DNA of 64,000 bases from Methanococcoides sp. (lineage in GTDB: Archaea; Halobacteriota; Methanosarcinia; Methanosarcinales; Methanosarcinaceae): assembly GCA_021108275.1 (NCBI GenBank), contig JAIORD010000041.1:1-64000 (forward strand), read 5' to 3'. Below the pieces are notes generated by a model. That model worked only from the letters and a program-made list of their open reading frames with translations. It was not told the origin of the DNA and did not search any database. The translations under genes and the position numbers were made by a program. Shown one piece after another: positions 15,147 through 51,312 of this stretch (position 1 is its first letter; each line of letters opens with the position of its first letter).

Positions 15147-15329
15147 AGCATTCAAACTAAATGGCTTATCACTCTTGGTATTCTGCTTCATATAATACAA
15201 AGTACCCTTAGGGAAACCCATCTTCTTCCTCAACAGATCAGTATCATCTCTTTCAACCATATAAACAGGATTTACAAACTCAATCGTTTTTCTCTTTCCA
15301 ACAAGATGATGGCTTAATTCCCTTGCCTT
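15147..15329 (-). pseudogene. Probable cas1 C-terminal relic
   Basis: A minus-strand open stretch reads A-R-E-L-S-H-H-L-V-G-K-R-K-T, then V-E-R-D-D-T-D-L-L-R-K-K, then M-G-F-P-K-G-T-L-Y-Y-M-K-Q-N and K-P-F-S-L-N. From memory this matches the C-terminal part of type I-B Cas1 of methanogens, where a similar G-F-S-K-G-T-L-H-Y-M-K-Q-N-A-K motif occurs. About ten residues usually found between the R-K and the G-F are missing. No start, catalytic domain or other cas gene is present. I consider it a decayed fragment, and the family assignment is moderate only. Confidence 0.45.
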
Positions 15330-15360
15330 GAGTATCAGAACTATTTTTAAGAATATTGGG

Positions 15361-15376
15361 CATGCATAAAGTCTAA
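15361..15376. repeat. 16-bp direct repeat, right copy
   Basis: The partner of 14289-14304, with one mismatch. It lies just upstream of the cas1-like relic on the minus strand. Confidence 0.4.
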
Positions 15377-15577
15377 AACGCAGCAACAGATCAATGATGA
15401 ATAAGATGACTATCGCAATGTCAGTACATGTTATCTTTTAAGATAATACATATGATTCTAAAACGCATGCTTATATACTTTGTACTATTTGAGTAATGCA
15501 AATAGCTGATGCAGCTTGTGAATTGGTAAATAGATGATAAAATATAATTTATTATCTATTTTCTTGGTGTGGTATAA

Positions 15578-15799
15578 ATGAGTTATAGAAGACATAGAGA
15601 ATTCCCTATTTCAGCACGTAGGGATATAAATTATCTGAAGCTTGAGACGAAACTCTATCGCTATAACACTAACGAAATTGTAAAAGCAGAACGAGCAATG
15701 CGTACAACAACTTCGTTCTTTTTTAGACCACCTACCATTGTTAATTCATCTCTCTTTTTTTCGCAATTTAAGACAATTAAAGTTTATACAAGACAATGA
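15578..15799 (+). CDS. Small hypothetical protein, possibly truncated
   Basis: ATG 15578 follows a ttggtgtggtataa stretch and opens a 73-residue frame. The first 42 residues are basic and look like coding sequence (many R, K and Y; R-R-D-I-N-Y-L-K-L-E-T-K). The remainder is low-complexity, rich in F, S and T, as expected for read-through into non-coding DNA. No family is recognised. It may be a short real gene or the 5' stub of a broken one. It lies directly before the large CobN-like gene, which has its own TATA-like element around 15781. Confidence 0.35.
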   Translation: MSYRRHREFPISARRDINYLKLETKLYRYNTNEIVKAERAMRTTTSFFFRPPTIVNSSLFFSQFKTIKVYTRQ

Positions 15800-15822
15800 A
15801 AACGAACTAGTGTGGTGTAGTC

Positions 15823-18800
15823 ATGAAAAATAAAGATACGATCTGTAAAAAAATTAAATTTATATTACCAGCATTGCTGCTTTTGATATTCCTTTGTGCA
15901 ATTCCTGGAGCAGCTGCTTCTTCTTATGAACTTGTTGCGAATACGACGAGTGATGAAAATGGAGATTTCATTTTTGAAGACGTTCCGAATGGAGATTATT
16001 CAATTGCTTCTATGAACTACCTCTATTCGGCAATGGCGAAACACGATATGTGGTTCTGTAATACAAGCAACGTAAATATTGAAGGATCAAATATTGTTAT
16101 CGATCCAATAATAAATAGACTTGATACTTCAGTAGAGGTTGATCAAGTATTAGGAATGCTTCAAAAAAAGAAGATATCAGGTGTCACCCTTAAAAAAGGA
16201 AGAAAAACCAATACCCCGATCAATGATACGACCCTTATTCTAATTTCAGACACAGGAGAACTTGTTGCAAACACAACAAGTGATCAAAACGGTAGTTTTT
16301 ATTTTACTGATATCCCAAATGGGAATTATAATATTGCTACCCTCAACTTCCTTTATTCATCAATGAGCGAAAAGAACATATGGTACACTAATACAACCTC
16401 CATAGAACTTACAAGCTCTGATATTATCGTTGATCCTATAATCAGCAGTAAAGATAAAACAGTAAATGTTGATACAGTTCTTGGACTTCTTGATAGAAGT
16501 GAAATATCAGGTACTACACTCAAGAAAGGAAGAAAGACCAATACTCTGATCAATGATACTACCCTTGTTCTTGTTTCGGATACGGGTGAATTTGTTGCAA
16601 ACACTACCAGTGACCAAAACGGTAGCTTTTATTTTACCGACATCCAAAATGGAAATTATAATATTGCTTCCCTCAACTTCCTTTATTCTTCAATGAGTGG
16701 GGAAAATGTGTGGTACACAAATACAAGCAATATAAATGTATCAGGTTCAAATATCAGCATAAACCCCATCATTAGCAGCAGGGACAAAACAGTAGATGTT
16801 GATGCAGTTCTTGGATTTTTTGACAGGAGCGAGATATCAGGAATTACTCTTCAAAAAGGAAGAAGATCAAATACTCCTGTAAATGACACAATTGTTGTCC
16901 TGTTAAAAGAGAAAATGGGTTTGCCAGTACCAACTGCTAATTTTTCGATAAACAATGCATCTGGCAATTGTCCGTTGACAGTTGAATTTAATGACCTGTC
17001 TGAAAATGCAACATCATGGTACTGGGATTTTGGTGACGGCTCCTATTCAACAGACCAAAACCCAATACATGTCTATGACAGTGTTGGATCTTTTAGTGTA
17101 AAACTTACTGCAAGTAATACCCAAAACAGTGAGGTAGAGAGGAAGATCGATCTTGTGACCAGTTATTTGCCAGTGGAAAATAAAACAAAAAAGATGTTAT
17201 TCCTTGTTCTTGGTGCTGAAGAAACATACATGACAAAGCAAGCTGTCAAAGATATGGGAATGGAAGACCAGATCGATGTTTACGGTAGTTACCGCGAGAA
17301 CAGAGTGGAAATATTCTACTCTCCATTTGAAGAAAACATCAGCATGGAACAATACAATGTTGTTTTCGTTAGCTGGAAAGGTGGAATGAGTTTCTTAGGT
17401 GCAAACCTCAAACCTCAGATCTGGGGAATGATCAATGAGACCAAACCGGGAACATTCGTATATGACCAGAACTTTGACCTTGACGAACTCAGCAATATTG
17501 AATACATCAACCATACAGAACATCCATATCTTGAAGATTACTGGATGGAACAATATGACAATAACATCATTCGTTTGATAACATATCTATCAGTAGTTGA
17601 TCTCTCATCTCCTTTCTCGGACTACGCAGGGACCATCAGGATAGAAGAACCATCGATAACACCAACCAATGGTATTGTTCACCCCGATGCAGGTTATGAA
17701 ATATTCAATGATCTTACTTCATATCTTGAATGGTATTCAGATAATGATGGAAAACACCATGTTTATAATCCTGAAAACTATACTGTCGGCATAACTTTCT
17801 TTGAGGGACATGATGGTGATCTGTGTGACGGCGTTACCGAAGCACTCATCAATGAACTTGAATCAAGAGGAATTAATGTAATACCAACATTCCGCCCAGC
17901 CGTCATTTACGAGCTGGATGATGCTGAACTCTACTTCAAAGTAGATAAAGAATGGAAAGCTGATGCATTCATTGATGTTGGAATGGGTGTTTCAAGTATG
18001 TCCTCTTTCGTATGGCAGAACGAAGCACTTCAGGAAATGGGAGTACCTGTGATTAATGGTATCCAATATCAGGGCACTATCGAAGAATGGGAGAATTCTG
18101 TAAGTGGCCAAGATGGAAGATTCCAATATCAGATCCCTATCATGGAGATCGGTGGTGAGATTGAGTCCATTGTAATCGGAGGAAAAGAATATGATGAAGA
18201 TATGGAAGCCTGGACTTTCCAACCGATCGATTATCAAATGAAATGGATGGTAGACCGTACAGTTGGCTGGATCGATCTTCAACACATCAAGAACAAAGAC
18301 AAGAGAGTTGCCATAATTTATTACAACCATGGTAAACAGGGTGCTATGGTAGCTGCAAATCTTGATGTCGCACCAAGCATACCTAACATGCTGACTGCAA
18401 TGAAAGGGGACGGCTATGATCTGGACGAAAAAGACATCAATCGGTCAGAATTTATTGAACTCGTACTTCAACAGGGCAGAAATGTCGGAGTTTGGGCTCC
18501 TGGTGAATTAAACTACATGGTCGAGAACTATGATGTTGAACTTTTACCTGTGGAAACATATCTTGAATGGTTCGAAGATATAGAACCTGCTGCACGCCAG
18601 AGTGTAATTGACACATGGGGTGAAGCTCCTGGGAAGGGTATGGTCTACGAGAACGAATCAGGTAAATACTTTGTATTCCCGAAGATCGAAGTTGGAAACG
18701 TGCTCATTGCACCACAACCTCCAAGAGGTCTTACGATCAACGATACAATGCTCTATCACGACCAGTCAGTTCCACCATCACACAATTACATTGCATTCTA

Positions 18801-21800
18801 TCTTTGGTTGAACAAAGAACAAAATGAAGGTGGTTTTGATACAGATGCAGTTGTCCATTTTGGAAGACACGGTTCAGAGGAATGGCTACAAGGTAAAGGA
18901 GTAGGACTATCTGTAAAAGAATGCTGGCCAGCCCTTCTTATACAGGACATGCCAGTAGTTTACCTATATGATGTTGGTGGGGTCGGCGAAGGTATTACCG
19001 CAAAGAGAAGAGGTAATGCAGTAATGGTGGACCATCTTACTGCACCGGTAATTAATTCCGGATTGTACGGAAACTTAACACAGCTTCACGATGCAATGCA
19101 TAATTATGAAGAAGCAGAAGGTTCTCTAAAGCAGGAATACAGAAGATCCATAATTAACTATTACGAGGATCTTGATCTTGAACATGAACTTGGAAATTCA
19201 TCAGATGATCTTTTTGCAATGGAAAATGAAACGTTCGAGAATTTCGTATTACATGGACCTGTTCATGATTATCTGCATGAGATAGCATCTTCATACATGC
19301 CTTACGGACTTCACATACTTGGCGAAGACATGAGTGAGCAAGGACTTACTGCAATGGTCAAGTCAATGCTCGGAAATGACTTTAAAAAGCATGTTAATGC
19401 AACCGGTCTCTGTGAAGATCCTGATATGTTGAGCCCTGCTCATTCCCCTAATGTTCTGGATGAACTCTTGACAGAGGTGTTGATCAATGGAACTGAACCA
19501 ATGGAAGTTGTTATCGATCAATTTAATATAGACTACACATTTGGACAGTATTACACTACTGTTCTTTCCAACACCTCAGGATCTTATGATGCTGAATTTG
19601 TGAAAGATGGAAAATATACAGTCTATGCGTTCAAAGAAGTTTCAGATGGATGGATCACAGGAAAAGATCATACGACTATCGTAAATGGAGAAACTGTTGA
19701 TAATATTAGTATCGCACTTTCAAAGAATATAAGTGGAAAATCTAATATTGAACTCGAATATGTTCTTAACATGCTTAATGATGTGCCAACAATTGGAATT
19801 GGGACTGGAGTGATAAGTGGACAAACCTGTTATCCGGGAATGGATGGTTCCCTTAAAGCCAGATCAAATTCAAAAGTTGTATTACAAAAGGATGGAAAAG
19901 CCATAGATATGTATGTAACTAGCACTGATGCAAACTATACTTTTTCAGATATACCTGATGGTGAATATGTGATATCATCTATCTATCAAAGTACGATCAG
20001 TGGAAGCTGGTATTTTGATGATAAGAATGTAGAGATATCAAATAATGGATCAGAGTATGTCAAACTAGAAATGGAAAAAGACAATGCTAATGCTCAAATG
20101 CTTAGATCATTACTTGGTGAAGTTTCTGGTACAACAATACTTAATGGAACATCGATCACAGAAGATGGATGTAGTGTTATAATTATAACACGCCTTAATG
20201 GTGCTCAATTAACTGTTGCTAACGATCTCTATGCTGCATTGGACTATTCTAATGCATTAAAGGAGTGTAAAGATGCTGAGATAAATGGTATGATAGATGC
20301 ACTTAATGGTAAATACATTCCACCGGCATTAGGTGACGATCCTACAAGAAGTCCTGATGAAGTATTACCTACAGGAAAGAACTTCTACGCATTCAACCCG
20401 AATATTGTCCCTACAAAAGAATCATGGGAAGTAGGAAAGCAACTTGTTGATGAATTCCTGGATGAATGGAAGGAAGCTCATGATGGACAATATCCTGAAA
20501 AGGTAGGATTTGTGCTTTGGTCTTCTGAATCCATGAGACATAAAGGAGTCATGGAAGCTGAGATCATGTACCTTTTGGGCGTGGAACCTGATTACAGTTC
20601 ATCCGGTAAGGTCGAGGGAGTAAAGCTCATTCCTGAAGATGAACTTGGAAGACCCAGGATCGATGTTCTGGTTACTATGACAGGTGTATACCGTGATAAC
20701 TGGAAGTGGCAGGTTCAGCTTATGGACAGAGCAGTAAGACTTGCAGCAGATGCTGAAAGCGGTGATCATCCAAATTACGTGAAAGACCATTCAGATACAA
20801 TATATGATGCTCTGATGGAGACTGGAAATTACGGTGAATCTGAAGCCAGAGGGCTTTCAATGTGCAGGTTGTTTGGACCGGATGATGGAAGTTGGGGTAT
20901 CGGTGGCCTGACCAATTCGGTTGATGCAAGTGGTACCTGGACAGAGGAGGAAAAACTTGCGAACCTATACATCAATTCTATGAGCTATGCATATGGTGAT
21001 AAGATATGGGCCTTCAAGGATACAGAGGTCTTCAAACAGGCACTTGCAGATACTGATGCTGTGTTGTTCAGCAGAAGTGGTAATTCCGGTCGTGGAAGTA
21101 GCAGTGTGGTATTTGACCATACCTACGAGTTCTTCGGAGGTTTTGGAATGGCAGTAAGGAATGTGTCCGGTGATACTCCGGATATGTTCATTGTGAACCT
21201 GAAAGATCCGGCTCAGGCTATGACGGAAACCCTCGGTGCTTTCCTTTCAAGGGACCTGCGTTCAACGTACTGGAATCCAACTTGGATCGAAGGTATGATG
21301 AATCATGGATATGTCGGAGCCAGTGAAATTGATCGGATGCTGGAAGATTTCTGGGGCCTTAATGTAATGCTGCCAGATGAAATAAATGATGATATGTGGA
21401 ACGAGTTCTATAATATTTACGAAAATGATAAGTATGAACTTGGAATGGATGAATGGTTCCAATCTGAGAACAGCTGGGCAAAGCAATCAATGGAAGCAAG
21501 AATGCTTGAAGCTATTCGCAAAGGATATTGGGATGCACCGGATGAAGTTCTGAAAACACTTGCTCAAAAGTATCAGGAGTCAGTTGTTGAAAATGGTGTT
21601 TCATGCTGTCATCACACCTGTGGAAATCCACTTTTGCATGAGTATGTTAGCGGACTTGCTTCCGTTACAGGATATACGGATGTTGTTGATGCTGCTACAA
21701 AAACGACTGCCCTTTCCGAAGTAACTGAAAAAAGATCAAAATCAGGAAGTGGAACGAAAACTGAAGCGAAGATTGTGGACACAAGCACCGGAAACCAGAC

Positions 21801-22023
21801 ACATTCAATGGATGGAGGTGTCGGTTCTGATATGGCAAATGATCCAACTGCAAAGCAATCAGAAGATGATAATTATGTTGAAGGTTACGAGATGGTAAAA
21901 GAGAAAAATATTGATACTGAATCGTCCTCAAGCGGATTCTCAGGAGCTGATATGCTGGGAACAGCCATTGTATTCCTTGCAGTGGGAATCATATTATATG
22001 GATTCCGCAGACGAGGGTTCTGA
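15823..22023 (+). CDS. Giant secreted, membrane-anchored CobN-like (chelatase-family) protein
   Basis: The 2066 residues begin with a signal peptide (residues 1-31, hydrophobic core L-L-L-L-I-F-L-C-A). Three to four 110-residue carboxypeptidase-regulatory-like repeats follow to about 360, then a PKD domain (about 369-450, with W-Y-W-D-F-G-D-G). CobN/ChlH-type chelatase sequence starts near 458, including the conserved H-F-G-R-H-G-S-E-E-W-L (1012-1022). At about 1235-1465 more beta-rich repeat modules interrupt it. Chelatase sequence resumes at N-G-K-Y-I-P-P-A and runs to about 1950; a helix at the C-terminus (G-T-A-I-V-F-L-A-V-G) precedes R-R-R-G-F. Family members insert cobalt or magnesium in the cytoplasm with AAA+ partners; this one should face outside and has none nearby. 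Tetrapyrrole binding or dechelation at the surface is a plausible inference. TATA-like gtttataca lies near 15781. Confidence 0.85.
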   Translation: MKNKDTICKKIKFILPALLLLIFLCAIPGAAASSYELVANTTSDENGDFIFEDVPNGDYSIASMNYLYSAMAKHDMWFCNTSNVNIEGSNIVIDPIINRLDTSVEVDQVLGMLQKKKISGVTLKKGRKTNTPINDTTLILISDTGELVANTTSDQNGSFYFTDIPNGNYNIATLNFLYSSMSEKNIWYTNTTSIELTSSDIIVDPIISSKDKTVNVDTVLGLLDRSEISGTTLKKGRKTNTLINDTTLVLVSDTGEFVANTTSDQNGSFYFTDIQNGNYNIASLNFLYSSMSGENVWYTNTSNINVSGSNISINPIISSRDKTVDVDAVLGFFDRSEISGITLQKGRRSNTPVNDTIVVLLKEKMGLPVPTANFSINNASGNCPLTVEFNDLSENATSWYWDFGDGSYSTDQNPIHVYDSVGSFSVKLTASNTQNSEVERKIDLVTSYLPVENKTKKMLFLVLGAEETYMTKQAVKDMGMEDQIDVYGSYRENRVEIFYSPFEENISMEQYNVVFVSWKGGMSFLGANLKPQIWGMINETKPGTFVYDQNFDLDELSNIEYINHTEHPYLEDYWMEQYDNNIIRLITYLSVVDLSSPFSDYAGTIRIEEPSITPTNGIVHPDAGYEIFNDLTSYLEWYSDNDGKHHVYNPENYTVGITFFEGHDGDLCDGVTEALINELESRGINVIPTFRPAVIYELDDAELYFKVDKEWKADAFIDVGMGVSSMSSFVWQNEALQEMGVPVINGIQYQGTIEEWENSVSGQDGRFQYQIPIMEIGGEIESIVIGGKEYDEDMEAWTFQPIDYQMKWMVDRTVGWIDLQHIKNKDKRVAIIYYNHGKQGAMVAANLDVAPSIPNMLTAMKGDGYDLDEKDINRSEFIELVLQQGRNVGVWAPGELNYMVENYDVELLPVETYLEWFEDIEPAARQSVIDTWGEAPGKGMVYENESGKYFVFPKIEVGNVLIAPQPPRGLTINDTMLYHDQSVPPSHNYIAFYLWLNKEQNEGGFDTDAVVHFGRHGSEEWLQGKGVGLSVKECWPALLIQDMPVVYLYDVGGVGEGITAKRRGNAVMVDHLTAPVINSGLYGNLTQLHDAMHNYEEAEGSLKQEYRRSIINYYEDLDLEHELGNSSDDLFAMENETFENFVLHGPVHDYLHEIASSYMPYGLHILGEDMSEQGLTAMVKSMLGNDFKKHVNATGLCEDPDMLSPAHSPNVLDELLTEVLINGTEPMEVVIDQFNIDYTFGQYYTTVLSNTSGSYDAEFVKDGKYTVYAFKEVSDGWITGKDHTTIVNGETVDNISIALSKNISGKSNIELEYVLNMLNDVPTIGIGTGVISGQTCYPGMDGSLKARSNSKVVLQKDGKAIDMYVTSTDANYTFSDIPDGEYVISSIYQSTISGSWYFDDKNVEISNNGSEYVKLEMEKDNANAQMLRSLLGEVSGTTILNGTSITEDGCSVIIITRLNGAQLTVANDLYAALDYSNALKECKDAEINGMIDALNGKYIPPALGDDPTRSPDEVLPTGKNFYAFNPNIVPTKESWEVGKQLVDEFLDEWKEAHDGQYPEKVGFVLWSSESMRHKGVMEAEIMYLLGVEPDYSSSGKVEGVKLIPEDELGRPRIDVLVTMTGVYRDNWKWQVQLMDRAVRLAADAESGDHPNYVKDHSDTIYDALMETGNYGESEARGLSMCRLFGPDDGSWGIGGLTNSVDASGTWTEEEKLANLYINSMSYAYGDKIWAFKDTEVFKQALADTDAVLFSRSGNSGRGSSSVVFDHTYEFFGGFGMAVRNVSGDTPDMFIVNLKDPAQAMTETLGAFLSRDLRSTYWNPTWIEGMMNHGYVGASEIDRMLEDFWGLNVMLPDEINDDMWNEFYNIYENDKYELGMDEWFQSENSWAKQSMEARMLEAIRKGYWDAPDEVLKTLAQKYQESVVENGVSCCHHTCGNPLLHEYVSGLASVTGYTDVVDAATKTTALSEVTEKRSKSGSGTKTEAKIVDTSTGNQTHSMDGGVGSDMANDPTAKQSEDDNYVEGYEMVKEKNIDTESSSSGFSGADMLGTAIVFLAVGIILYGFRRRGF
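15922..16920 (+). repeat. Coding repeat, 330-bp (110-residue) period
   Basis: The motif ending in K-G-R-(K/R)-(T/S)-N-T starts at 16181, 16511 and 16841, exactly 330 bp apart. Each unit also carries V-A-N-T-T-S-D and N-G-x-Y-x-I-A. The first unit is incomplete because it follows the signal peptide directly. The close similarity of units 2 and 3 suggests recent internal duplication. Confidence 0.85.
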
Positions 22024-22037
22024 AAATAAGACCAACA

Positions 22038-22072
22038 TGGCATCCCTAAATGGATGCCAAATTCTTTTTTTA
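22038..22072 (+). terminator. Terminator of the CobN-like gene
   Basis: A perfect 8-bp stem tggcatcc (22038-22045) / ggatgcca (22052-22059) with a 6-nt loop is followed by a T run to 22071. It sits 14 bp after the stop codon and abuts the stop of the convergent hydrolase gene. Confidence 0.85.
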
Positions 22073-23014
22073 TTCGAATATCAGTTCAAGTCCTTCTTCA
22101 AGATATGGATGCATCAGACCAGTATAGCCGTGAGTCGTGCTATCAATGGCTGCAAATGACTTTGGGTCTTCTGCTTTTTCAAATGTGATCTGTGCAGAAT
22201 CATAGGGAATCACACTGTCATTGATCGAATGCAGCATCACAAAAGGACGGGGCGATACCTCCACAAGATAATTGTCAGGGTCTATGGACCTGAAGAATTT
22301 GTAAGCTAATTTGTCTGTGATCTGAGCAGGATCGATTGCAGAAGAATCGTATCCACAGGTGCTTATAACAACAACTCCGGAAAGGGAATCATCAAGTGCT
22401 GTTGTGATAATGGCAGGTCTGCCTCCATTGCTTGAACCCAGCATTGCCACCTTTGATGCATCTATCTCCGGCTGGACACCCAGTACATCAGAAGCTTTCA
22501 GGGCATCATAGATCATTAGATACTGAACCGGTTCAACTCCTGTTTTGAACATTTCAACATCCGACTCAAGGTCAATTGCCCCAAGATCCCTCTGGTCAAT
22601 GATGATCGAAGCATAGCCCATGTCAGCGAGTATTACCGAAAGACCATATTCGTTCTCTTTTGTGACACCAGCGCCCGGCAGGACCACTATAGCCGGAATC
22701 TGAGAATCGGTTGTCGTTCTTGGAATTGTCAAAAGTGAAGGAACGGTTCTGCTCCTGCTCGTATATTCGATTGTACTGACAGTGTAGTTCGAATTAGAGT
22801 CATCGACATCAATAACTGAATATTGGATATCATCACGTTCTGGATACGAAAGCAAGCCATCTTCAGTAACTGACCACTTATCGTCCTGGTTAAACAGTAT
22901 CCCGAAAAGACCTGAGAGGATTAAAAGGATACCAATGACCAGAACGAGGTTATTGCTCTTCAGGAGCCTTTTCATTTTTAAAGCGTCCTTATTCTTCGAT
23001 CTGTTCTTAGCCAT
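22070..23014 (-). CDS. Alpha/beta hydrolase, membrane-anchored
   Basis: The 314-residue protein has a basic N-terminus, one transmembrane helix (residues about 24-44, L-V-L-V-I-G-I-L-L-I-L) and an extracytoplasmic alpha/beta-hydrolase domain. The oxyanion/G-A-G-V loop precedes the nucleophile elbow G-S-S-N-G-G (Ser near residue 198). Late aspartate (N-D-S-V-I-P) and histidine (T-T-H-G-Y) positions complete a likely triad. The dienelactone-hydrolase/acyl-esterase type is probable; the substrate is unknown. It is convergent with the CobN-like gene and lies downstream of the cdh operon, but the hairpin at 23037-23070 separates it. Confidence 0.8.
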   Translation of the reverse strand: MAKNRSKNKDALKMKRLLKSNNLVLVIGILLILSGLFGILFNQDDKWSVTEDGLLSYPERDDIQYSVIDVDDSNSNYTVSTIEYTSRSRTVPSLLTIPRTTTDSQIPAIVVLPGAGVTKENEYGLSVILADMGYASIIIDQRDLGAIDLESDVEMFKTGVEPVQYLMIYDALKASDVLGVQPEIDASKVAMLGSSNGGRPAIITTALDDSLSGVVVISTCGYDSSAIDPAQITDKLAYKFFRSIDPDNYLVEVSPRPFVMLHSINDSVIPYDSAQITFEKAEDPKSFAAIDSTTHGYTGLMHPYLEEGLELIFE

Positions 23015-23036
23015 AGCTAGGGGAACAATGGTGAAA

Positions 23037-23070
23037 TAAAAAAAGATTTCCGTGTCACGGATGACACGGA
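23037..23070 (-). terminator. Terminator of the cdh operon
   Basis: On the minus strand a 9-bp stem tccgtgtca/tgacacgga with a 4-nt loop (23049-23070) is followed by a T run (23037-23047). It starts 15 bp after the cdhE stop codon. Confidence 0.8.
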
Positions 23071-23084
23071 GGATATAGATCTAA

Positions 23085-24491
23085 TTATTTCTGTGGTGGC
23101 CAGTTCTGTTCCATCCAGCCAGGCAACCTGCCTGAATCTGCCGGACCGATCATTACTCCTGCACCGGTCTCGTCTTCCACATCGCCCTGCAGACGTGCTG
23201 CAAGTCCTGGAAGCACAATGACCTTGTGAGTAAGCTTGCCCATGTCAAAGCCTGCATCATCAAGTCCTTTCTTGATCTTTGCGGCTGTGAGCTGTCCTCC
23301 TGCCACAGCAGCCTCTACACCGATACCATCAGTGTCGATAGCTGTGAGGTAACAGTCCACACCATTAGATGAAAGGTCACTCTCAACTGTGTAATATGTG
23401 AGTGCGAAGTTGGTGGTCACAAGCAATGGTGAATCTGCTGTTGGTGAACCTATCTCATAGACTGCAGGATCGACCGTAACAGGCTTCCTTGGGTCAGTGT
23501 ACATAGTATCACGTATATGCAACTGTGGCATCAGTGCGTAAGGCTCGATGCTGTGCATTATCATGATATCACCGTACTTGACAGTGAATATAGAAGCTAC
23601 AACGGTTTCCCAGTATGATGCGCTTACCTCGTCATCATGTGCCATCCAAGCTGTGAACGGAACTGCCATGATCGGGAATGCGATATCACGGTCACCATTG
23701 ATGCCTGCTCTTCTGATCTTCAGGAAATTGTTGAGGGTCGTCTTAAGGCCTTTTCCTGTCGGGAATGTTCCCGGATCGAGTACAACATCTTCAATGCCAT
23801 TATCTGCGAAGGTCTTTGCCATTGACTTGAGAAGATCAAGGTCATTTGGTGCAAAGACAGTTACAGGGACATTGAACTCCTGTGCCAGAGCTGCGACTTC
23901 CTGCCAGTTATCCTTGTTCGCTGCATAAAGGAGTGGTCTCTTTTCAGCTGCGACCTCAAGTCCTGCCCTCAGTACAGCAGGTTCGAAAGAGCAGAGTACC
24001 ATTGGGAAGTCAGTGGTCTCCATTACCTTCTTTACGGTCGCTGCGAACTTTTCAGGGTCATTTGATACACTGCGGACAGCAATCATGTCAAGGGTGAGGT
24101 AATCACCGACATAAAACTTCTTGAAGTCCTGTATCTTGTTCACTCTCTCGACAAGGTCAGCCTCTTCCATGGTGTCCCAGACATCATAGGCAAGAGCTGT
24201 CTTGTTGAAGAAAGTAAGCTTATGACGGTGCAATACATCGTCTCCTCCGATACTGATAGCGTTATCTCCGACACCGATGACAACTTCCCTTATCTCAGGA
24301 GCAAGGAGAGTTACAAGTTCATCATATTTCTTCTTGTATTTTTTTTCCTCAATAAGAGGGATACAATCAGTTGCCTGTAGTGATCTGTCGATAAGGTGGG
24401 AAGCAAATGCCATACAGGATGTTTCACCACATTCACCACAGTTAGTTCCAGGAAGGAACTTGTATGCTTCGAGGGGGCTGTTTATTTTCAT
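23085..24491 (-). CDS. cdhE: Acetyl-CoA decarbonylase/synthase gamma subunit (corrinoid Fe-S protein, large)
   Basis: The 468-residue subunit carries the corrinoid and the [4Fe-4S] cluster that pass a methyl group between tetrahydrosarcinapterin and the acetyl-CoA synthase A-cluster. The N-terminus shows the cluster ligands G-T-N-C-G-E-C-G-E-T-S-C (cysteines near 18-26), followed by a TIM-barrel and a C-terminal corrinoid-binding part (P-G-L-A-A-R-L-Q-G). It is the last gene of the cdh operon, with 3 bp between it and cdhD. The length is typical of Methanosarcina CdhE. Confidence 0.95.
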   Translation of the reverse strand: MKINSPLEAYKFLPGTNCGECGETSCMAFASHLIDRSLQATDCIPLIEEKKYKKKYDELVTLLAPEIREVVIGVGDNAISIGGDDVLHRHKLTFFNKTALAYDVWDTMEEADLVERVNKIQDFKKFYVGDYLTLDMIAVRSVSNDPEKFAATVKKVMETTDFPMVLCSFEPAVLRAGLEVAAEKRPLLYAANKDNWQEVAALAQEFNVPVTVFAPNDLDLLKSMAKTFADNGIEDVVLDPGTFPTGKGLKTTLNNFLKIRRAGINGDRDIAFPIMAVPFTAWMAHDDEVSASYWETVVASIFTVKYGDIMIMHSIEPYALMPQLHIRDTMYTDPRKPVTVDPAVYEIGSPTADSPLLVTTNFALTYYTVESDLSSNGVDCYLTAIDTDGIGVEAAVAGGQLTAAKIKKGLDDAGFDMGKLTHKVIVLPGLAARLQGDVEDETGAGVMIGPADSGRLPGWMEQNWPPQK

Positions 24492-24494
24492 TTA

Positions 24495-25814
24495 TCACAC
24501 CTCCGCTCCGATCCACTTAGTGATATCGATCTCTTCAGCCTCAATTGAGCCATAGAGTGTTTGTGTTATTTCCTTGAGCACCTGAACTGATGTTGGGTGC
24601 ATCATCATGAACATATCGTTACCTGCAAGTGAGAGGGTCAGACCTGTGACTATCTCCCAGATAGGACCTCTGTACTCACGTGGACCCCAGTCGGAATCCT
24701 GTTTAAGTGGAGATTCCTTCATCCATGACTCACGTGCACCCCATGCATTGGTCGTACCGGAGGACATTGGGAATGTAAGTTCATCATCGCCCATAAGACC
24801 TGCAAGTCGAATACGTTCCATATTAGTGTATGCGTAATCAAGACCATAACCAAGCGCTGCTGTGGTCGGGTCCATGACAATGCTATCCCTTGGGACATTA
24901 CACTGTTTCATGAGCTTTCTGTTAAGTTCCTTTTGTGCATTGATCTCAAGCTGAGTCCATGAAAGTACTGCATGACCGTGGTCAGTAGCAGCTTTTGCAA
25001 CTCTTTCATAATCAAGGTTCAGACTTGCAGATGCTAAGAGAACACGTTCTCCTTCTGCAACTTCGGCCGCCTTTTCGAGAACTTCAGGATCTTTCTTTGG
25101 ATTACCTGAACCACCAATTACAATAGGTACTTTTACTGCCTGAAGAACATCCTCTACGACCTTTGCAGCTTCCCTTGCTGGAGTATCGTCAATAAGAGGA
25201 TCAGTTGAGATCAGGTGTATAGTTACCATATCTGCATTGAAGTCCTTTACAACCTTCTTTGCCCAGTCAGCTGGATCATTGATGACATCACCATAGTTCT
25301 CTTTGACGGATTTTGCCATACTTATTGGCATGTCAAAAACATCCATTGTAACATAATTACGGTGTGGCATTTCTGCATCAAAGTAATATGGGAGTGCATT
25401 TTCTCCACCGAGAGTGACAGTGTTCTTACGGGAACCACCATCTGCTGATGTTGCACCAAGGGTAACTTCCTGAATAGGTGTTGCCCACTCGCTCATCTTT
25501 GAGACATCGAACTTTGCAGGAAGGAGTTCTGGTATCCTAGATGCACCTGCAACAGGTGCCTGCTGTGGAACTCCGCCCATTGATGCTGCGAAAAGTTGGT
25601 CAACGGGGTATCCTAACATTCGTGCAATATTAGCAACATGCATTGATATCTGAGCAGCTTCGTGCCCAAGTGCGTAGGCCATTGCAGGATTTAATCCGCC
25701 GCCTCCGGAAATATCGAGCTCGATGTCACCTTCAATTGTCACTCCTTCGAGTGACTGGACATCGAGGTCTTTAAGAATATCAGTAAGACCTGATAATTTC
25801 ATCTTGTTTGACAT
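24495..25814 (-). CDS. cdhD: Acetyl-CoA decarbonylase/synthase delta subunit (corrinoid protein, small)
   Basis: The 439-residue TIM-barrel partner of CdhE binds and presents the corrinoid. Recognisable family features are the [15 protein letters not shown] near the N-terminus and the [13 protein letters not shown] segment (near residue 318). A proline/alanine-containing linker around residues 85-100 joins the N-terminal helical part to the barrel. It lies between the CooC-like ATPase gene and cdhE in the standard order. Confidence 0.95.
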
Positions 25815-40360: not shown

Positions 40361-41745
40361 GCAGGAGATATTAAAATGACATTTACAAAATCAGTTACCT
40401 GCTTTGACTTCTACGACCGAGCACAGAAAGGCGAGAAATGTACCCAGGATGACTGGGATCTGATGACCATTCCAATGAAGGCAATGGAACTCAAGAATAA
40501 ATACAACCTTGACTTTGGTACCGAGACCGTTCCAACCGACAAGGATCAGATGGAGAGACTCTTCAAGGCAGGTATCGAAATGCTCCTTGACTGTGGTATC
40601 TACTGCACAGACACAAAGAGGATCGTCAAATACACAGAGGACGAGATCTGGGACGCTATCAACAACCCAATGCCAGCATTCCAGCTCGGTACCGGCAGAG
40701 ATTCAGTACAGATGAAGAAGAGGACAATAGGCGACAAGAGAAAGCCTATAGTACAGGGCGGTCCAACCGGCTCACCTATCTCAGAAGATATGTTCATGCC
40801 AATTCACATGAGCTATGCACTCGAGAAAGAAGTTGACACAATTGTTAATGGTGTCATGATGACGATCCGTGGTAAGCCACCTATACCAGGCAGCCCATAC
40901 GAGATCCTCGCAGCAAAGTCCGAAACAAGGCTCATCAAGAACGCAGCAGCAATGGCTGGCAGACCTGGTATGGCCGTTTAGGGACCTGAGACTTCCCTGT
41001 CCGCACAGGGAAACATCGCTTCCGACTGTGTCGGTGGCCAGGTAACAAGTGACAGCCACGAAGTATCACAGCTCAACGAGCTTAAGATTGACCTCGATGC
41101 AATCGCAGTTATCGCACACTACAAGGGTAACAGCGACATCATCATGGACGAACAGATGCCTATCTTCGGCGGATACGCTGGTGGTATTGAGGAAACAACC
41201 ATTGTAGATGTTGCAAGTAGCATTAACTCCATGGTAATGAGCAGTGCAAGCTGGCACCTTGATGGTCCTGTCCACATCAGATGGGGATCCACCAACACCA
41301 GAGAAACCCTCCAGATCGCTGGATGGGCATGTGCAACTATCAGTGAGTTCACAGACCTTATGACAGGTAACCAGTACTATCCATGTGCAGGTCCATGTAC
41401 CGAAATGTGCCTCCTCGAAGCAGCAGCACAGTCCGTAACTGACACAGCATCCGGCCGTGAGATCCTCTCAGGTGTCGCAGCAGCAAAGGGTGTCATCACT
41501 GACAAGACAACCGGTATGGAAGCAAGGATGATGGGAGAAGTCGCACGTGCAACAGCAGGCATGGACATCGACTCCGTGAACGCTGTTATCAACAACATCG
41601 TCAGCTCCTACGAAGGCAACTACGCAAACGCTCCTGAAGGTAAGAGATTCCAGGACTGTTACGATGTTGCAACCGTTACACCAACCGACGAGTACGTAAA
41701 AGTATACGAAGGCGCAAGAAGGAAACTCGAAGAATTCGGTCTTAC
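39860..41745 (+). repeat. 1886-bp near-perfect direct repeat, copy 1
   Basis: On reading, this tract is identical to 49427-51312 (offset 9567 bp). It covers most of mtmC and almost all of mtmB. The first differences on each side are 39859 (G versus A) and 41746 (C versus A). Upstream codons of mtmC and all flanking DNA differ, which points to gene conversion within the coding tract. Confidence 0.9.
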
Positions 41746-49927: not shown

Positions 49928-51312
49928 GCAGGAGATATTAAAATGACATTTACAAAATCAGTTACCTGCTTTGACTTCTACGACCGAGCACAGAAAGGCG
50001 AGAAATGTACCCAGGATGACTGGGATCTGATGACCATTCCAATGAAGGCAATGGAACTCAAGAATAAATACAACCTTGACTTTGGTACCGAGACCGTTCC
50101 AACCGACAAGGATCAGATGGAGAGACTCTTCAAGGCAGGTATCGAAATGCTCCTTGACTGTGGTATCTACTGCACAGACACAAAGAGGATCGTCAAATAC
50201 ACAGAGGACGAGATCTGGGACGCTATCAACAACCCAATGCCAGCATTCCAGCTCGGTACCGGCAGAGATTCAGTACAGATGAAGAAGAGGACAATAGGCG
50301 ACAAGAGAAAGCCTATAGTACAGGGCGGTCCAACCGGCTCACCTATCTCAGAAGATATGTTCATGCCAATTCACATGAGCTATGCACTCGAGAAAGAAGT
50401 TGACACAATTGTTAATGGTGTCATGATGACGATCCGTGGTAAGCCACCTATACCAGGCAGCCCATACGAGATCCTCGCAGCAAAGTCCGAAACAAGGCTC
50501 ATCAAGAACGCAGCAGCAATGGCTGGCAGACCTGGTATGGCCGTTTAGGGACCTGAGACTTCCCTGTCCGCACAGGGAAACATCGCTTCCGACTGTGTCG
50601 GTGGCCAGGTAACAAGTGACAGCCACGAAGTATCACAGCTCAACGAGCTTAAGATTGACCTCGATGCAATCGCAGTTATCGCACACTACAAGGGTAACAG
50701 CGACATCATCATGGACGAACAGATGCCTATCTTCGGCGGATACGCTGGTGGTATTGAGGAAACAACCATTGTAGATGTTGCAAGTAGCATTAACTCCATG
50801 GTAATGAGCAGTGCAAGCTGGCACCTTGATGGTCCTGTCCACATCAGATGGGGATCCACCAACACCAGAGAAACCCTCCAGATCGCTGGATGGGCATGTG
50901 CAACTATCAGTGAGTTCACAGACCTTATGACAGGTAACCAGTACTATCCATGTGCAGGTCCATGTACCGAAATGTGCCTCCTCGAAGCAGCAGCACAGTC
51001 CGTAACTGACACAGCATCCGGCCGTGAGATCCTCTCAGGTGTCGCAGCAGCAAAGGGTGTCATCACTGACAAGACAACCGGTATGGAAGCAAGGATGATG
51101 GGAGAAGTCGCACGTGCAACAGCAGGCATGGACATCGACTCCGTGAACGCTGTTATCAACAACATCGTCAGCTCCTACGAAGGCAACTACGCAAACGCTC
51201 CTGAAGGTAAGAGATTCCAGGACTGTTACGATGTTGCAACCGTTACACCAACCGACGAGTACGTAAAAGTATACGAAGGCGCAAGAAGGAAACTCGAAGA
51301 ATTCGGTCTTAC
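49427..51312 (+). repeat. 1886-bp near-perfect direct repeat, copy 2
   Basis: This is the partner of 39860-41745. The boundaries lie inside mtmC (49426) and seven bases before the end of mtmB (51313). Direct orientation and the 9.6-kb distance mean that recombination between the copies could delete the regulators and permease module 1. Confidence 0.9.

Follow-up and report, generated by a model that had tools for sequence, protein, structure and literature searches.

AAA+ ATPases drive cytosolic class I chelatases, and a chelatase placed outside the cell raises the question of what it would do there and what would drive it. Such a protein is predicted from the gene at 15823-22023 of the window, the whole 64,000-nucleotide stretch of Methanococcoides sp. 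DNA analysed here (assembly GCA_021108275.1, contig JAIORD010000041.1, positions 1 to 64,000 of the forward strand). The best explanation, held at about even confidence, is that the gene encodes an extracytoplasmic, membrane-anchored class I chelatase that resembles HmuS/BtuS, the proven, NADH-dependent haem dechelatase of Bacteroidota (Protein Data Bank (PDB) 9d26, 9p4s; EMBO J 2025, PMC12583661). It would remove metal from a ligand other than haem b and may be driven by a proton motor.

Architecture and fold

The open reading frame occupies exactly 15823-22023, with an ATG start and a TGA stop, and encodes 2066 amino acids. An earlier reading made from the letters of the window (the sequence-only reading) had described a signal peptide, repeats, a PKD domain, an interrupted CobN-type chelatase and a C-terminal anchor, and this architecture was confirmed. 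The features of the gene and its leader are as follows.

15400-15822, plus strand: conserved leader, about 90% identical in genome G006 and 93% in G002, where it precedes a different chelatase body
15823-15921, plus strand: predicted signal peptide, residues 1-33 (sequence inspection; helix 3-24 in the model)
15922-16167, plus strand: repeat 1, truncated at its start, residues 34-115
16168-16497, plus strand: repeat 2, beta-sandwich of 110 residues, 116-225
16498-16827, plus strand: repeat 3, beta-sandwich of 110 residues, 226-335
16828-16920, plus strand: repeat 4, a stub, residues 336-366
16921-17160, plus strand: PKD domain, residues 367-446 (PF18911, E 2.4e-12; PF00801)
17170-18222, plus strand: head and neck, chelatase domains I-II, residues about 450-800, in which the residues of HmuS haem site 1 are not kept
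18223-19446, plus strand: chelatase domain III, residues about 801-1208, with HFGRHG at 1012-1017 (His1016) and Glu1056
19447-20232, plus strand: insert of beta-sandwich modules in domain IV, residues 1209-1470
20233-21642, plus strand: chelatase domains V-VI, residues 1471-1940
21115-21141, plus strand: catalytic motif DHTYEFFGG, residues 1765-1773 (His1766, Glu1769)
21604-21621, plus strand: CCHHTC motif, residues 1928-1933, conserved in most archaeal secreted members
21874-21894, plus strand: YVEGYEM box, residues 2018-2024, candidate docking box before the transmembrane segment
21949-22020, plus strand: predicted C-terminal transmembrane anchor and RRRGF tail, residues 2043-2066 (hydrophobicity)

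The Pfam model PF02514 (CobN-Mg_chel) scores 1027.8 bits and covers residues 572-1193 and about 1475-1910, on either side of the insert, and matches to SdrD_B and CarboxypepD_reg at the N-terminus, to PKD at 368-443 and to fn3_3 at 1241-1292 account for other parts. Coverage of the whole domain set by PF02514, together with the fold and the histidine of HFGxHG, places the protein among the large subunits of class I chelatases. It scores 1325.4 bits against the NCBIfam CobN equivalog, whose cut-off is 1619, and falls further below the cut-offs of other CobN models. A location outside the cell with anchoring in the membrane, as the sequence-only reading had it, is predicted from the signal peptide and a C-terminal transmembrane (TM) segment at 2044-2061, which is separated from the chelatase part by a low-complexity linker and followed by the arginine-rich RRRGF.

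The chelatase core (780-1979) is complete in a confident AlphaFold model (pLDDT 87, pTM 0.81), so the model does not show the loss of a tetrapyrrole pocket that would have told against the sequence-only reading; it overlays 852 residues of Mycobacterium tuberculosis CobN (Z 48.9) and 858 residues of HmuS at 2.9 A (Z 43). HmuS, earlier named as a precedent, is both the best PDB sequence match of the protein (E 8e-149) and the best Foldseek match of the model (E 2e-68). The model of residues 1-779 is weak (pLDDT 67, under 50 in the PKD domain); it contains three periods of 110 residues, each a beta-sandwich with a helix. The tract has a tandem period of 330 bp in the DNA. Its units 2 and 3 are complete and share 83 of 109 residues, unit 1 (34-115) lacks the first strands and unit 4 is a stub of 31-33 residues, which bears out the earlier count of three to four 110-residue repeats.

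The insert (260 residues, 1209-1470) occupies the domain IV position, the site of a Met-rich insertion in HmuS. Of the inserted modules, the one at about 1329-1430 shares ancestry with the repeats of the N-terminus (shuffle z about 9); it is modelled as a transthyretin/CnaB-type sandwich (Z 12). The other, at 1243-1301, is beta and has no detectable relationship to them. In a separate clade (L074, L165 1-4740, L179) an insert about as large lies between the two chelatase motifs, and this loop seems to have acquired insertions on more than one occasion.

Relative to the nearest orthologue, the ratio of nonsynonymous to synonymous substitution rates (dN/dS) is 0.15 for the gene as a whole and falls to 0.04-0.08 in the catalytic domains. 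Purifying selection acts on the gene, most strongly on the parts that encode these domains; given the low ratio and the intact frame, it is not a pseudogene.

Family relations and active site

A tree computed under a mixture model, without the catalytic motifs, has a branch (SH-aLRT 100) that separates 26 secreted proteins, HmuS among them, from cytosolic CobN/ChlH. The window protein, judged by its sequence, is not a one-off but a member of a large family of secreted proteins that stands apart from cytosolic CobN/ChlH, with relatives in other methanogens and in further archaea and bacteria. Its own clade, of an archaeal type with the catalytic residues His/His/Glu, comprises Methanococcoides, Methanolobus and the anaerobic methanotrophic (ANME) groups ANME-2c and ANME-1, with support of 100 in both a quick LG tree and the mixture tree. 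The branch of HmuS is placed differently in the two trees, of which the mixture tree was relied upon. Orthology with HmuS was rejected: a grouping of the window clade with HmuS to the exclusion of members with Asp in place of the second histidine fails the approximately unbiased (AU) test (p 0.0015), so the window clade shares chemistry with HmuS, not immediate descent.

The HmuS residues H538, E577, D1208, H1209, E1212 and S1014 are kept in all 18 archaeal members of the window clade. In the window protein the equivalents of the catalytic set are His1016 and Glu1056, and Asp1765-His1766 and Glu1769. In HmuS, the substitution H538A abolishes haem turnover (PMC12583661). Asp stands at position 1209 (HmuS numbering) in members of the Asp-type secreted group (128 rows), and also in this genome's own paralogues on contig C1 and in two of three CobN references, whereas ChlH has His at 1209 and Asp at 1212. 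Because HmuS and ChlH share His at 1209 where most CobN references have Asp, the residue points to a ligand of porphyrin rather than corrin type, as far as can be judged from the few characterised enzymes. The cobalt and corrinoid link drawn in the sequence-only reading is correspondingly weak.

The CCHHTC motif, which follows domain VI, is present in 138 of 177 family members tested and absent from most bacterial and cytosolic ones; a metal hand-off site is possible. A 12-member sister clade of secreted chelatases (L053, L057, L068, L087, L114, L115, L145) has lost the catalytic HFGxHG and DH motifs and is nevertheless conserved and co-encoded with copies of active type, possibly as non-catalytic partner subunits. 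The chelatase copies in G056 and in a 'Nanohaloarchaea' metagenome-assembled genome may be misbinned contigs.

Motor genes, body exchange and a proposed mechanism

Gene context was examined in a further 60 regions taken from relatives and in 78 named loci that a genome scan supplied. Genes for DUF2162, ExbB and DUF2149 directly precede window-type genes at L041, L107, L114 and L115, a DUF2149 gene lies at the contig end by window-type genes at L043/L110, and ExbB with DUF2149 is present in 61 loci that hold secreted chelatases only. Secreted CobN, ExbB and DUF2149 occur together in Methanosarcinales, Methanomicrobiales, ANME-1, Desulfobacterota, anammox planctomycetes, Nitrospira and Sphingobacterium, and likewise in Pseudoalteromonas and Bacteroides. 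Among 60 related genomes, PF02514 and DUF2149 are both found in 45 and both lacking in 13 (Fisher p 4e-11); of the two discordant genomes, one is incomplete, and in the other, G036, the only CobN copies seen are two of cytosolic length. Both PF02514 and DUF2149 are present in Methanosarcina acetivorans, a methanogen with a genetic system.

The ExbB partner matches PF01618 and keeps the pore threonines in its GLxGT and TT motifs, and DUF2149 has Asp at the start of its single TM segment (NLFD, as in ExbD) in 98% of 76 proteins; the pair thus has the two parts of an ExbB/ExbD-type motor, an ExbB family member and a one-TM partner with an acidic TM residue. HmuU and HmuV of Bacteroides are homologous to the archaeal ExbB and DUF2149 (best E about 1e-32 and 1e-28). 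An equation of HmuT with DUF2162 was dropped. DUF2162 proteins (L008 988-1662 and relatives) conserve a PCPxC motif in the membrane in 98%, which suggests a role in metal or electron transfer.

PF01078 proved uninformative as a probe for AAA+ partners, matching every genome, and was replaced by phmmer searches with annotated VWA partners, which found no AAA+ partner gene beside secreted members; an AAA-VWA partner occurs in three loci, each with cytosolic copies only, and none at the window. The earlier claim that the protein acts without ATP is probably right, and the proton-channel motor genes of its relatives add a likely alternative source of energy.

Archaea have no outer membrane and no TonB receptor, and in Bacteroidota HmuU/HmuV are thought to power an outer-membrane receptor. 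With no such receptor in archaea, it is more plausible that the motor acts on the chelatase or on DUF2162; a short box kept before the TM segment supports this. A box of the form G..[MI], mostly VEGYEM, is present in 157 of the 159 secreted proteins with an intact end (shuffled mean 54), and its strict form VxGYEM in 152 (shuffled 16), counts that are not independent since the proteins are related. It lies a median of 19 residues before the TM segment within an otherwise variable linker, is kept from methanogens to planctomycetes, and is proposed as a docking site for the motor.

The genome encodes four CobN-type proteins: the window copy, a tandem pair on C1 that follows DUF2162, ExbB and DUF2149 genes and precedes an F420-type FrhB/YHS oxidoreductase gene, and a decayed copy on C14. 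The window gene itself lies in a genomic slot whose synteny is kept across nine Methanococcoides genomes, adjoining a hydrolase gene and the carbon monoxide dehydrogenase/acetyl-CoA synthase (CODH/ACS) operon. Four genomes (the window, L047, L040, L064) have a His/His/Glu body in this slot and five (L046, L052, L055, L062, L067) a different, Asp-type body. Between the window and G002 (L067), DNA identity is 90% over 15220-16005, a stretch that runs from the leader halfway into the first repeat, and 92% over 21865-24600, from the VEGYEM box on, and the body between these conserved ends is a different paralogue (31-41% amino acid identity). The chelatase body has been exchanged between species at a fixed slot, where the signal peptide and anchor stayed. 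By the neighbouring CODH/ACS gene (97% and 89% identity) the genus divides into two subgroups, and each of them contains both body types, so the exchange probably happened more than once.

Under the metal-removing explanation, a tetrapyrrole, of porphyrin rather than corrin type, would enter, outside the cell, the cleft that domains III and V of the chelatase form between them. There His1016 (with Glu1056) would lie opposite His1766 (with Asp1765 and Glu1769), and together they would coordinate the metal and donate protons to the ring; the freed metal would then be taken up. The beta-sandwich repeats and PKD domain would serve as a spacer or binding stalk, and the inserted sandwiches would extend the domain IV loop. 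For members of the family, a proton-motive motor of ExbB and ExbD-like DUF2149 would replace the cytosolic AAA+ ATPase, perhaps engaging the VxGYEM box and the C-terminal TM segment with DUF2162 as a partner membrane protein, and the window copy would use the C1 motor set in trans.

A wider and more tentative proposal, for which the chances are well short of even, is that a dechelatase system working outside the cell and driven by a proton motor (DUF2162-ExbB-DUF2149-CobN) is common to archaea and several bacteria. Since archaea have neither outer membrane nor TonB receptor, the motor in such a system must act on the chelatase or its membrane partner; it would grip the VxGYEM box in place of an AAA+ ATPase, and by swapping bodies Methanococcoides would change which tetrapyrrole, or which metal, is taken at one locus. 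The ExbB-DUF2149 half of the hmu operon does stand beside secreted chelatases in methanogens, ANME and other archaea. The authors of the HmuS study had noted many archaeal HmuS/CobN/ChlH homologues of unclear role in archaea without complete hmu operons (PMC12583661); to this the analysis adds an archaeal group that keeps every residue of the HmuS catalytic set, and a conserved box beside the membrane that hints at a way of coupling a proton motor. No description of the archaeal operon, of the box or of the body exchange was found in the literature, in which subscription journals were thinly covered. If the proposal is true, methanogens and methane oxidisers obtain Fe, Ni or Co by mining tetrapyrroles outside the cell, and chelatases have a second source of energy besides ATP.

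Rival functions, known systems and further observations

Several results weigh against an HmuS-like dechelatase. The window clade is not sister to HmuS, and its His/His/Glu set would be of parallel origin or an old state. Haem site 1 of HmuS (M79, H254, R256, Q299) is kept in none of the 18 window-clade members (at the columns of Met79, His254-Gly-Arg and Gln299 the window protein has K519, G720-M-G and Y769), and Q1198, S1199 and W1202 are mostly changed; with these haem-docking residues missing or altered, the ligand is not predicted and haem b is not the obvious one. By sequence, the metal-extraction residues are present but ring recognition differs from that of haem b in HmuS. The window gene has no ExbB or DUF2149 neighbour, ExbB-DUF2149 pairs stand without a chelatase nearby at L189 and L191-L193, HmuT has no similarity to DUF2162 and HmuS lacks the strict box. 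No biochemical or localisation data for archaeal members were found in the literature.

A surface receptor or store, in which the fold binds a tetrapyrrole or metal without turnover and hands it to a transporter, is rather unlikely. The conserved motif-less sister clade indicates that binding-only members may exist, a role as haem chaperone has been suggested for the HmuS of Porphyromonas gingivalis (PMC13227078), and the beta-sandwich repeats and PKD domain suit a receptor stalk; however, the window clade keeps its catalytic residues in 18 of 18 members while losing the haem-docking ones, and dN/dS is lowest in the catalytic domains. That constraint also tells against a co-opted structural protein of the surface or surface-layer type with the chelatase fold as a mere scaffold, a very improbable reading despite the varying number and fast evolution of the repeats among members and the exchangeability of the body at the locus. 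Chelation might instead run in the direction of insertion, for example putting Ni, Co, Fe or Zn back into scavenged tetrapyrroles that lack a metal, outside the cell: CobN and ChlH insert through the same site, and a CobN-ExbD-DUF2149 operon of Pseudomonas aeruginosa belongs to the zinc (Zur) regulon (PMC4542158, PMC9431628). Insertion is nevertheless improbable, as no AAA+ partner gene accompanies secreted members and the closest characterised protein, HmuS, removes metal. The cobalt argument of the sequence-only reading would make the protein a surface factor for corrinoid (B12) salvage or remodelling, in keeping with the corrinoid needs of methylotrophic methanogens and the CobN-like Asp of the C1 paralogues; this appears still more improbable, since the window clade has the His/Glu pair of HmuS (His/Asp in ChlH), both porphyrin enzymes, no cobalamin genes were seen beside the window gene and the CobN equivalog cut-off is not reached.

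Among known systems, HmuS shares with the window protein the class I chelatase fold, a signal sequence and C-terminal TM segment (predicted from sequence in the window protein), His538/Glu577 and Asp1208-His1209/Glu1212, and an insertion in domain IV. Its partners ExbB and DUF2149 (HmuU, HmuV) have counterparts beside relatives of the window gene (L041, L107, L114, L115) and none beside the window copy. HmuS differs in that the archaeal window type has no outer membrane and no HmuY/HmuR (not expected in archaea), and in that the window protein lacks haem site 1 (M79/H254) and most propionate contacts, has transthyretin-like beta-sandwiches in place of the Met-rich insertion, adds N-terminal repeats and a PKD domain, and is not monophyletic with it. 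The CobN-like BtuS proteins of Methanosarcina barkeri (MSBRM_0518, MSBRM_1640), likened here by their published description, are also methanogen chelatases; they are reported to change with the iron and sulfur source and were proposed to take Fe from haem, and their authors report no full operon (PMC10846266). P. aeruginosa PA1922-PA1925 (TonB receptor, CobN-like protein, ExbD, DUF2149) shares a CobN-like gene (PA1923, likened by description), a proton-channel gene and DUF2149, but is zinc-regulated and has an outer-membrane receptor (PMC4542158, PMC9431628). CobN cobaltochelatase and ChlH magnesium chelatase have the domain III-VI fold and HFGxHG in common with the window protein; unlike it, with its signal peptide and TM segment, they are cytosolic, have AAA+ partners (CobST, ChlID) and form a separate clade.

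The FrhB/FdhB-type F420 oxidoreductase with a YHS domain (L007 8860-10029) follows the CobN operon in most Methanococcoides genomes examined and could supply reductant, by analogy with NADH for HmuS. The C14 copy (L009 9584-16954, G000:C14) is of the same PKD/insert type as the window copy, with several near-identical repeats; it does look to be decaying, since a TGA stands in frame within its insert and only pieces of DUF2162 and DUF2149 are left of the operon upstream. A second ExbB-DUF2149 pair (L185 6461-7808, G000:C4) lies head to head with a CobN C-terminus remnant of 163 residues (linker, VEGYEM, TM).

The leader (window 15577-15822; L196, L195) holds a small open reading frame, which is broken in the window by a T7/T6 indel and in G006 is open and ends just inside the chelatase start. 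A structured RNA was rejected for the leader (no Rfam match, fold z -0.29). At G004:C5:591339-594668 a cytosolic-type CobN gene carries a TAG codon in frame; the genus is one that uses pyrrolysine, and a 2005 study (PMC1242214) had predicted that TAG is read through in CobN. PYLIS_1 elements, of the kind present in methylamine methyltransferase genes, occur twice in the window with identical scores, at 40979-41078 and 50546-50645.

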